From Hydrogenophaga sp. (GTDB lineage Bacteria > Pseudomonadota > Gammaproteobacteria > Burkholderiales > Burkholderiaceae_C), in NCBI RefSeq assembly GCF_018780385.1, contig NZ_JADMJO010000013.1:1-64000 (forward strand): a DNA stretch of 64,000 bases, written 5' to 3'. The notes under the pieces were generated by a model, which saw only the letters and a list, made by a program, of their open reading frames with translations, was not told the origin of the DNA and did no database searches. The position numbers and the translations under genes are program-made. This document shows, piece after piece, positions 60,943-64,000 of the stretch; position 1 is the stretch's first letter, and every line of letters starts with the position of its first letter.

Positions 60943-61452
60943 ATGGAAACACTCGACAAGTTCGACATCACCATCCTGCAAGAACTGCAAAGTGACGGCC
61001 GCCTCACCAATGCCGAGCTCGCCCAGCGCGTGGGCTTGTCGGCCGCGCCCTGCTGGCGGCGCGTGCGCGCTCTGGAAGAGGCGGGGTTCATCCGGGGCTA
61101 CCGCGCCGAAATCGACCGCGAAAAGATCGGCCTGGGCGTGCTCGCCTTCGTGCGCCTGGACGCCGACCGCAACAGCGGCGACGTCACACGCAGCCTGGAG
61201 AACGCGATTCGCGGCATCCCCGAGGTGGTGTCCTGCCACTACATCAGCGGCTCTGGCACCTTCGAACTGCAGGTGGTCAGCCGCGATCTCAACCATTTCA
61301 GCCAGTTCGCCCGCGAAGTGCTGATCAATTTGCCCAACGTGAAAGACCTGCACACCAGCTTTTCGCTCGGAGAAGTGAAATCGGGCAGTGCACTTCCGTT
61401 GTCGCACCTGTTGGCCAAAAGTACGAGCACGGCAAAGAAGCCAGGAACTTGA
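60943..61452 (+). CDS. Lrp/AsnC-family transcriptional regulator
   Basis: LDKFDITILQELQSDGRLTNAELAQRVGLSAAPCWRRVRALEEAGFIRGYRAEID. Confidence 0.95.
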   Translation: METLDKFDITILQELQSDGRLTNAELAQRVGLSAAPCWRRVRALEEAGFIRGYRAEIDREKIGLGVLAFVRLDADRNSGDVTRSLENAIRGIPEVVSCHYISGSGTFELQVVSRDLNHFSQFAREVLINLPNVKDLHTSFSLGEVKSGSALPLSHLLAKSTSTAKKPGT

Positions 61453-61652
61453 ACATTTTTGCAACCATTCATCTAATCTTTTCGGCCGTTGGGTAACAAA
61501 GTCGCCGTAAGTTGTTGAGATATGTGAATTTTTTCCGATTCTTTTCTTGCCATCATTCGTGTCGTTTCGTAACATTGGGCCATCAACCCCCGTGGAGCAG
61601 GTACCTGAAAGTGCTCAGCCCACACTTCTCACTTCCATTTGAAGGAAACGTC

Positions 61653-62246
61653 GTGAATAAAGCCCTGCTGCTCAAAACCACCTTGGCCCTGGCTCTGGCA
61701 ACCCCGTTGCTGGCCTCGGCCGAGTCGCAGCTCATCGTCGGCGGCACCGCCAGCGCGGTCGCACGCCTGGATTTCCGCGTCGTCGTTCCCCGGGTGCTGT
61801 TCCTCGGCGTGGGTGCCGGTGCCGGCAGCCTCGCCGACAACGCCACGATCGACACGGTGACGTTCGACTACACCACCAACCCCGCTGCCGTAGGCACCGG
61901 TGCAGCCGCTGGCGCCATCACCGGCAACGTCGTGCCGGTGCGCGTCGTGGGCAACAACGGTCAGGTGAGCCTGGCTGCTTCCACCACGGGCGCATTGACC
62001 AACCTTGCTGGCGATACCATCCCCTGGTCCGAGATCACAGCGACCACCAGCCTGGCCGCACTGCCCAGTCCCATCATCCCCAACACGGGCGCGGGCACGG
62101 CCCGCGACGTGACGCTCTCTTCGGGCACCAAGGTCACCGACCGTGCAGCCAATTGGACCTTCAGCTACGCCAACACGGCGGTGGTGGCTCCGGGCACCTA
62201 CGGCACGACCAATGGTCGCGTGACCTACACCGCCGCCATGCCCTGA
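61653..62246 (+). CDS. Exported beta-rich pilin-like protein
   Basis: GTG start with GAAGGAA RBS; signal peptide VNKALLLKTTLALALATPLLASA; C-terminus WTFSYANTAVVAPGTYGTTNGRVTYTAAMP shared with the next gene. Confidence 0.72.
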   Translation: MNKALLLKTTLALALATPLLASAESQLIVGGTASAVARLDFRVVVPRVLFLGVGAGAGSLADNATIDTVTFDYTTNPAAVGTGAAAGAITGNVVPVRVVGNNGQVSLAASTTGALTNLAGDTIPWSEITATTSLAALPSPIIPNTGAGTARDVTLSSGTKVTDRAANWTFSYANTAVVAPGTYGTTNGRVTYTAAMP

Positions 62247-62267
62247 GGTCGCAAGGGAGACCTTGAG

Positions 62268-62329
62268 ATGGCGGAACACCCGCCGTCGGCCTCACGGAGG
62301 GTTTGCAACGGGCAACCCTCCGTCGCCAT
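62268..62329 (+). repeat. Nested hairpin between the two pilin-like genes
   Basis: Outer ATGGCG (62268-62273)/CGCCAT (62324-62329); inner CGGAGGGTT (62295-62303)/AACCCTCCG (62314-62322). Confidence 0.65.
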
Positions 62330-62405
62330 TTAAGGCCCCTGCCTTGCACCTCGACACCGGCCTCCCGGGGGGCCTTTTCTGGACAGCCGCAGCGACACTG
62401 ACATC

Positions 62406-63059
62406 ATGAAGCGCAAGCCCCGCTCCAGCACGGCACACACTGCAGTGAACCTCTGCGTGGCGTTGCTGTGCGTGGCGGAGATGGCCTCTGCCCGCGCCTG
62501 GTCGTTGAACATCACTTCAGGCAGCCGGCGCCTGTTTCTCCATGTCGGCAACGGCGCGCTCAGTGGCTCCAGTGGCACGCTGAATGGGACTGCGGGCACC
62601 AGCGGCGCCATCAACCTGGTGCAGGTCTCGGTGCCGGTGGCGCTGTTGGGCAACGGAACAGCCTTGGCCATGACCAGCAACAGCACCCAATCCACCAGCC
62701 TGTATGGCGACGGCAACAACACCTGCCCGACCCCCGCCAACGCGCTGATGATCGGTGCCGGGTACCGCCGCAACAACGGCTCGGCCAACGCCACGTTGAC
62801 CGTCAATTCCAGCACCAGCTTGACCAACGGCAGTGACACCATTCCGTTCACCGAAATCAGCTGGACAGTCTCAGCTCCGGGCAGCGGTGTACCCAACGTG
62901 ATCCCCGCTGGCACCTTCAACGGCGGCACGCAGACCCTGGCCACGGTGCCAGGCAACACCTACCTCGAAAACTGCCACACCTACAGCTACGCCAACAGCG
63001 CGGTGCGCCCGGCGGGCACCTACAACGGCCGAGTGACCTACACCCTCAGCAGCCCATGA
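62406..63059 (+). CDS. Exported beta-rich pilin-like protein, paralogue of the preceding gene
   Basis: Signal-like N-terminus; DTIPFTEISW and HTYSYANSAVRPAGTYNGRVTYTLSSP resemble DTIPWSEI and SYANTAVVAPGTY..NGRVTYTAAMP of 61653-62246. Confidence 0.72.
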   Translation: MKRKPRSSTAHTAVNLCVALLCVAEMASARAWSLNITSGSRRLFLHVGNGALSGSSGTLNGTAGTSGAINLVQVSVPVALLGNGTALAMTSNSTQSTSLYGDGNNTCPTPANALMIGAGYRRNNGSANATLTVNSSTSLTNGSDTIPFTEISWTVSAPGSGVPNVIPAGTFNGGTQTLATVPGNTYLENCHTYSYANSAVRPAGTYNGRVTYTLSSP

Positions 63060-63517
63060 TCCTGCTCAAACACCTCGTCACGATGGTGGTCTGCACATTC
63101 ATGACTGCCACAGCCTGGGCCAACCCACATCGGCTGGACGATTCGCTGAGCCACACCGTGCCTCCCAATGTGCAGATGCAATGGCTGCCGTTGACGCCGG
63201 GTCAGTCTTTCGCGGGCGGCATGGAAGCCTGGCTGCGCGTCAACATCCGCCTAGATACCCGCGACTGGGCCGGGCGCAGGGGGCGCATCTACATGGTGCT
63301 CTCGCGCGACCAGAGCTCCAACGTCGAAGCCGTCTGGACCACCCAAGGGCGCCTGCAGCCCGGGCGCCTTGTCTCGGGTGAACGCTCCCTGGTCTTCGCC
63401 GGCACGATCCCCGGCGCCACCCTGGACGACCAGATGCAGGTGCGCCTTCGTTCTAATGCCGACTGGCAGTCCAACAGCCGGCGCCTGAATTTCCACTTCG
63501 AACTGGATGTCGACTGA
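63056..63517 (+). CDS. Small exported protein of unknown function in the putative appendage locus
   Basis: Signal peptide MILLKHLVTMVVCTFMTATAWA; overlaps preceding stop (ATGA). Confidence 0.65.
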   Translation: MILLKHLVTMVVCTFMTATAWANPHRLDDSLSHTVPPNVQMQWLPLTPGQSFAGGMEAWLRVNIRLDTRDWAGRRGRIYMVLSRDQSSNVEAVWTTQGRLQPGRLVSGERSLVFAGTIPGATLDDQMQVRLRSNADWQSNSRRLNFHFELDVD

Positions 63518-63524
63518 ATCCGCC

Positions 63525-64000
63525 ATGCCACATGCGCACCTGAGAGCATTCTTCGCCCTGCGCCATGCATTGCCGGGATGGGTGTGCACCGGTGCCCTCG
63601 CTGTCTTGCCGACCAGCATCCAGGCGCAGGGCTTCGCCGCCTACATCACGCCGCCGCGATTCGAGGTGCAGGCCACGCCCGGCCAATCACTGCGCCAAGT
63701 GCTGGAGATCCAGCACGTGGGGTCGCAGAAGGGCAACTACCGCATCTACACCAGCGACTGGACACTGCAGTCCGACAACTCCGTCACCTTCAGCGACGAG
63801 CTCGCTGCGGACAGCTGCCGGCCCTGGGTGGCGATCGAGCGGCGTGAACTCACGATCGAGCCCGGCGCGCGCTACCGCTACCGCTTCGAGATCACGCCTC
63901 CGCCCGGCACGCCGGCGCGCGAGTGCCGCTTTGCGATCATGGTGGAGGGACTGGACCCCGCTCGGGTTCAGGGCAGCTTCAACTTTCCAGTCGGTGGCCG
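63525..64000 (+). CDS. Putative PapD-like periplasmic chaperone, N-terminal part (truncated by window end; absent from the ORF track)
   Basis: My translation MPHAHLRAFFALRHALPGWVCTGALAVLPTSIQAQGFAAYITPPRFEVQATPGQSLRQVLEIQHVGSQKGNYRIYTSDWTLQSDNSVTFSDELAADSCRPWVAIERRELTIEPGARYRYRFEITPPPGTPARECRFAIMVEG...; Ig-like chaperone pattern, open at the window end. Confidence 0.72.
   Translation, partial: MPHAHLRAFFALRHALPGWVCTGALAVLPTSIQAQGFAAYITPPRFEVQATPGQSLRQVLEIQHVGSQKGNYRIYTSDWTLQSDNSVTFSDELAADSCRPWVAIERRELTIEPGARYRYRFEITPPPGTPARECRFAIMVEGLDPARVQGSFNFPVGG

Follow-up and report, generated by a model that had tools for sequence, protein, structure and literature searches.

A divergent, probable chaperone-usher-like gene cluster of a so far unnamed class in Hydrogenophaga and other bacteria

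The gene cluster at the window edge

The window, that is the whole stretch of 64,000 nucleotides that was analysed, forms the start of a 125-kb contig (C11). Four reading frames had been named between 61653 and 64000 in an earlier note, which took them for the beginning of a surface appendage locus cut by the window edge. All four are present and the cut was read correctly, as the chaperone gene runs on past 64000 on the contig and a barrel gene follows it. The features of the cluster are:

61547..61575 (L001 648-676), forward strand: promoter-like site TTGCCA-17-TAACAT upstream of P1, from a consensus scan
61653..62246, forward strand: P1, exported subunit of 197 aa, paralogous to P2, no Pfam family
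61737..61790, forward strand: proposed donor strand of P1, an N-terminal extension with the mature residues VGGTASAVARLDFRVVVP, based on conserved alternating hydrophobicity
62247..62405, forward strand: P1-P2 spacer with strong hairpins (fold z -3.2)
62406..63059, forward strand: P2, exported subunit in which a pair of cysteines is invariant
63056..63517, forward strand: P3, small exported protein, ATGA overlap with P2
63525..64000, forward strand: N-terminal part of a predicted Ig-like periplasmic chaperone, from fold and profile comparison
about 64352-66334, outside the window, just 3' of the chaperone gene: usher-like outer-membrane barrel protein
L001 5455-5569 (contig C11 66354-66468), beyond the window edge, flanked by the barrel gene and an IS630-family transposase gene: probable C-terminal remnant of P4

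P1 starts with a GTG behind a GAAGGA site and its signal peptide ends at LLASA-ES. The small exported protein that had been described as ATGA-coupled is P3. The chaperone frame begins at 63507 or 63525, is open at position 64000 and closes at contig position 64355 (282 aa counted from the upstream ATG); its stop is overlapped (ATGA) by the likely ATG start, at 64352, of the barrel frame, which has 674 aa and ends at 66334. Beyond the barrel gene lies the IS630-family transposase gene on the opposite strand, followed by what appear, on reading the sequence, to be exopolysaccharide-type genes. An Lrp/AsnC-type regulator is encoded directly upstream of P1 on the same strand (60943-61452). In other Hydrogenophaga the barrel gene is followed by an intact gene for a further protein, P4. 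As only a weak match to the end of P4 precedes the IS here (tblastn 43% over 37 aa, E 0.04), P4 was probably deleted from the window's genome with a remnant left behind.

The non-coding features are less distinct. The region contains four promoter-like sites where 0.7 would be expected, which is weak evidence. The spacer between P1 and P2 holds a terminator-like match, the hairpin GGCCTCCCGGGGGGCC-TTTT at 62359-62374, and strong hairpins occur there in many relatives (mean z -1.6 over 61 loci). A rho-independent terminator was found at this place in 4 of 65 relatives (0.8 expected), and for that reason a conserved terminator is not claimed; the spacer may act as an attenuator or as a stabiliser of the mRNA. 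A comparison with Rfam yielded no match.

Family assignment and distribution

In the versions of Pfam and NCBIfam used here, P1, P2, P3 and the chaperone went unrecognised, and single-protein searches of Pfam, NCBIfam and the PDB sequences returned only noise for the subunits and the chaperone. The barrel protein showed only an SdrD_B/CarboxypepD_reg-like C-terminal domain, below the Pfam cut-offs. Given that the whole source genome contains no match above threshold to PapD_N (PF00345) or Usher (PF00577), no candidate of the chaperone-usher kind other than this cluster is detectable in it. A search of the open-access literature found no paper that describes the system; one may exist elsewhere.

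Scanning a one-genome-per-species collection with a profile of the chaperone yielded at least 240 related stretches, and the 80 loci returned from these served as the sample for synteny. The complete order P1-P2-P3-chaperone-barrel was recovered in 72 of these loci, all from other species, whereas the remaining eight are cut by the start of the contig and so lack subunit genes. Orthologous clusters with the same order in so many independent loci show that the frames are not chance ORF content. The barrel gene was present in all 80 loci, in three arrangements: in the second (L040-L046) it comes first and further subunit genes come after, and in L064-L066 it faces the block. The loci were found in Hydrogenophaga, Variovorax, Ideonella, Polaromonas, Ramlibacter, Lysobacter, Pseudoxanthomonas, Steroidobacteraceae and others; the 240 or more stretches are spread over Comamonadaceae, other Burkholderiales, Lysobacteraceae and Steroidobacteraceae. 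Within the family of the source genome, the barrel protein was found to be encoded, beyond its C-terminal domain, in 16 of 251 genomes, the window's own included. No relatives turned up in viral contigs searched with the barrel protein, nor in phage and plasmid collections searched with the chaperone.

Some further observations concern the borders of the family. Three genomes (L087, L093 and L119) carry two clusters side by side that differ in gene order. More distant clusters (L069 2794-8406 and L072 3989-8695) hold a related chaperone, subunit-like genes (e.g. with VDVNITISNGITILYYYS at the N-terminus) and a long protein that has a CarboxypepD_reg domain at its end; these likely point to a wider superfamily that is unannotated as well. 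In L067, L068, L070 and L071, from other Pseudomonadota, distant chaperone-like genes are present with no barrel or subunit genes visible next to them. Conserved frames upstream of the cluster in Hydrogenophaga turned out to be chromosomal neighbours or antisense frames and were not counted in the system.

Subunits, chaperone and barrel protein

P1 and P2 are true paralogues (hhalign E 1e-24), in line with the two exported beta-rich paralogues that had been noticed before. Their C-terminal ends read ...GTYxGRVTYTxxxP, and a weak likeness to archaic pilins (SCPU) is limited to this C-terminal strand (E 0.006-0.01); Pfam scans gave no match to SCPU PF05229 in either subunit. The same C-terminal end presumably resembles the WxL motif, and a WxL identity was therefore considered; it received no support from the Pfam scans, with 0 WxL matches among 68 P1-group and 56 P2-group sequences. 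Profile matches of P2 to a xylanase (E 0.015) and of P1 to PlsX (E 0.8) were rejected as chance.

The two subunits differ at the N-terminus. The mature P1 of the window carries the alternating strand A-x-A-R-L-D-F-R-V-V-V-P at its N-terminus, and when 63 distinct P1 sequences are aligned on the strand LFLxVG, they show a strict alternation A-x-A-R-L-D-F-R-V-V-I-P near the mature N-terminus. An alternating hydrophobic pattern is also conserved in 29 distinct sequences of P4, a different protein that is encoded directly after the barrel gene (about 48 sequences). The match between P1 and P4 (hhalign E 7.6e-10) covers 40 columns, part of which are signal peptide, and the N-terminal strand is essentially all that they have in common, as would be expected if it is a donor strand. 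The mature P2 begins directly at W-S-L-N-I (family pattern W-S-L-x-I), and as it is apparently cleaved right before this sequence, it has no long N-terminal extension. P1 would probably be the main polymerising subunit, and P2 may be a tip subunit that is exported first, a role that fits the missing extension. Some relatives possess three or more tandem subunit genes.

The structure models described below are of the orthologues from another Hydrogenophaga (L075), the chaperone of which is 78% identical to that of the window. The chaperone model (mean pLDDT 92) consists of two beta-sandwich domains, and its best PDB folds were CsuC (1.1e-9), CfaA, the WxL-interacting protein (WxLIP) of Enterococcus faecium at rank 6, YadV and, later in the list, FimC and others. 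In profile-profile comparison it aligned along its length with the archaic chaperones (E 1.9e-8 over 212 columns), whereas the alignment to the classical chaperones was out of register (E 0.008) and other controls gave nothing better than E 0.01. The sole PDB sequence match of the profile above noise was WxLIP (E 0.005). In CsuC the carboxylate of the subunit is anchored by Arg89 (F1) and by Tyr196 and Arg174 (D2) (PMC4654587). In the present family hardly any variation is seen at the F1 arginine (ECRF), and an invariant D2 arginine (AHGR) lies near the position of Arg174; the position of Tyr196 aligns to an invariant proline. In a tree that took in 40 chaperones, the window's clade (21 rows, SH-aLRT 96) and four distant relatives form a branch of their own (support 99), apart from the archaic and classical chaperones. 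The protein encoded from 63525, which had been called PapD-like, stays under the cut-off of PF00345; the orthologue model predicts, at high confidence, that it is an Ig chaperone of two domains, related to the PapD/CsuC superfamily. The suggestion that the locus might represent a new subtype also gains ground, considering the separate clade of the chaperone and the fact that the subunits are without a match in Pfam, NCBIfam or the PDB sequences. The gene for P3, a protein that has no match in Pfam or the PDB, always adjoins the chaperone gene in the relatives; on account of this fixed place P3 is, speculatively, a candidate for the role that the small usher is missing.

An usher gene had been predicted immediately downstream of the chaperone. 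A large barrel protein with usher fold matches is indeed encoded there, but according to the orthologue model (mean pLDDT 84) it would be a reduced one. Residues 1-35 are largely disordered and contain a near-invariant Y-x-D, residues 36 to 515 form about 26 strands joined by loops of at most about 22 residues, and a single beta domain, CTD1-like, is found at 530-626. The model thus leaves no room for the N-terminal domain (NTD), plug and second C-terminal domain (CTD2) of an usher, all of which appear to be absent. In the PDB fold search ranks 1-13 were all FimD or PapC (E 3.8e-13 and weaker), followed at rank 14 by a protein of the Mtr complex (5e-8), with Foldseek TM-scores of only about 0.4. 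At the profile level the whole protein matched real ushers with E 1.9e-8 and TonB receptors with E 5.8e-6, whereas the barrel piece alone fitted TonB receptors (8e-6) better than ushers (0.0024), and the sequence of the barrel region was therefore dropped as usher evidence. The C-terminal domain aligned to usher CTD1 (E 3.6e-8) via the TDxxG and LP motifs and gave no alignment to the barrel controls. Therefore, the case for usher ancestry of the protein is built on its C-terminal domain, on the ranking of the folds and on the context of the gene. No adhesin-sized gene or gene for a two-domain tip adhesin (CsuE-like) is present in the conserved block, and an adhesin, which had been named as something to look for past 64000, was not found.

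Assembly, alternative readings and relation to known systems

By sequence or model, the conserved cluster specifies beta-rich subunits that are exported, an Ig chaperone of two domains that is related to the archaic ones, and an outer-membrane barrel with a domain like usher CTD1. The core of the earlier reading is thereby supported: a barrel with usher-like traits does follow, and the 63525 protein is predicted to be Ig-like. We consider it quite probable that the cluster encodes a chaperone-usher-like export and assembly system that is divergent and belongs to a so far unnamed class. In such a system the chaperone would lend a beta strand to P1 and P2 in the periplasm, with its conserved arginines anchoring the C-terminus of the subunit, which carries the conserved ...AGTYxGRVTYTLxxP. 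It would then deliver the subunits to a barrel that has no folded N-terminal recruitment domain, and the disordered N-tail with the near-invariant Y-x-D might serve as a docking peptide. Polymerisation would proceed by donor-strand exchange, the P1 strand AxARLDFRVVIP replacing the chaperone strand in a neighbouring subunit. P2, which has no extension, would leave first and form the tip, and P4 could be a base or terminator subunit in the many relatives that have it. A thin fibre on the cell surface would result, with a role in adhesion or biofilm; its polymerisation and surface display, like an adhesin, are hypothetical. A more far-reaching proposal would be that the barrel is a minimal usher without NTD or plug, in which the N-tail and/or P3 have taken over recruitment and gating, and also that the likeness of the chaperone to both archaic chaperones and WxLIP goes back to one ancient donor-strand chaperone fold that diderm and monoderm bacteria have in common. 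This combination is conceivable, and we put it forward tentatively, leaning against it as a whole.

The same reduced usher leaves some room for a secretion system derived from chaperone-usher pathways, in which single subunits or short heteromers are displayed or released and a long fibre is not made. The barrel has neither a plug nor an N-terminal domain by which polymerisation could be controlled, there are just two or three subunit types, P2 has no extension and an adhesin gene is lacking, all of which would suit such a system. On the other hand, the conserved N-terminal strand of P1 and P4 has no obvious use other than donation to another subunit, and the relatives with three or more tandem subunit genes also speak against this reading. 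We therefore regard secretion as unlikely. It is very improbable that the cluster is a Gram-negative counterpart of the WxL/WxLIP surface complex, with a chaperone-like protein that is not recycled and stays bound to the subunit as its anchor. The sequence match and fold rank of WxLIP given above do favour it, and the WxL sandwich is predicted to be completed by a strand from a hairpin of WxLIP (PMC10599100), but the profile match to archaic chaperones is far better, no membrane anchor is visible in the chaperone, WxL Pfam matches are lacking in P1 and P2, and an outer-membrane barrel is always present.

The barrel might also be an unrelated outer-membrane transporter, for instance of polysaccharide, that neighbours the chaperone operon by chance. 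This would agree with a barrel region that is not usher-specific by itself and with the apparent exopolysaccharide-type genes beyond the IS element. We give it hardly any credence, considering that the barrel gene is found in each of the 80 loci, with three arrangements among them, that the C-terminal domain is of the usher type and that usher folds head the PDB search.

Taking the cluster as a chaperone-usher-like system, the data support that it is widespread in environmental bacteria, unannotated and equipped with a reduced usher, with a hypothetical fibre role. As the Pfam and NCBIfam versions used miss its components, genome annotation and pilus surveys overlook it. An usher without plug and NTD would make it possible to test cleanly which parts of an usher are essential for subunit recruitment, gating and polymerisation, and the likeness of the chaperone both to its archaic counterparts and to WxL-interacting proteins has a bearing on how donor-strand complementation arose.

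Compared to known systems, the cluster resembles the archaic (sigma) Csu-type pili in the profile and fold of the chaperone (CsuC being the best PDB match), in the conserved F1 arginine position, in the N-terminal alternating strand and in the AGTY..xVTxTx subunit end. It differs from these in that PF00345, PF00577 and SCPU are not matched above threshold, in that the barrel lacks NTD, plug and CTD2, in the replacement of the anchor tyrosine by proline, and in having no two-domain adhesin, an extra conserved P3 and a separate chaperone clade. The fold of the chaperone is also close to CfaA and EcpB of the alternative (alpha/CFA-I, ECP) pili, but no Pfam match to an alpha-type pilin or usher was found and the gene order is different. 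With the classical type 1 and P pili (FimC/FimD, PapD/PapC) it shares the usher barrel fold, the CTD1-like domain and the Ig-type chaperone, whereas the chaperone profile is misaligned and the barrel is without plug or NTD. Finally, WxLIP (DUF916-DUF3324) is likewise a two-domain Ig protein, similar to the chaperone in sequence and fold, from a system that differs in being Gram-positive and membrane-anchored and in having no outer-membrane barrel. Given that no WxL domain was detected in the subunits of the present cluster, this likeness is best taken as a lead on common ancestry and not as membership.
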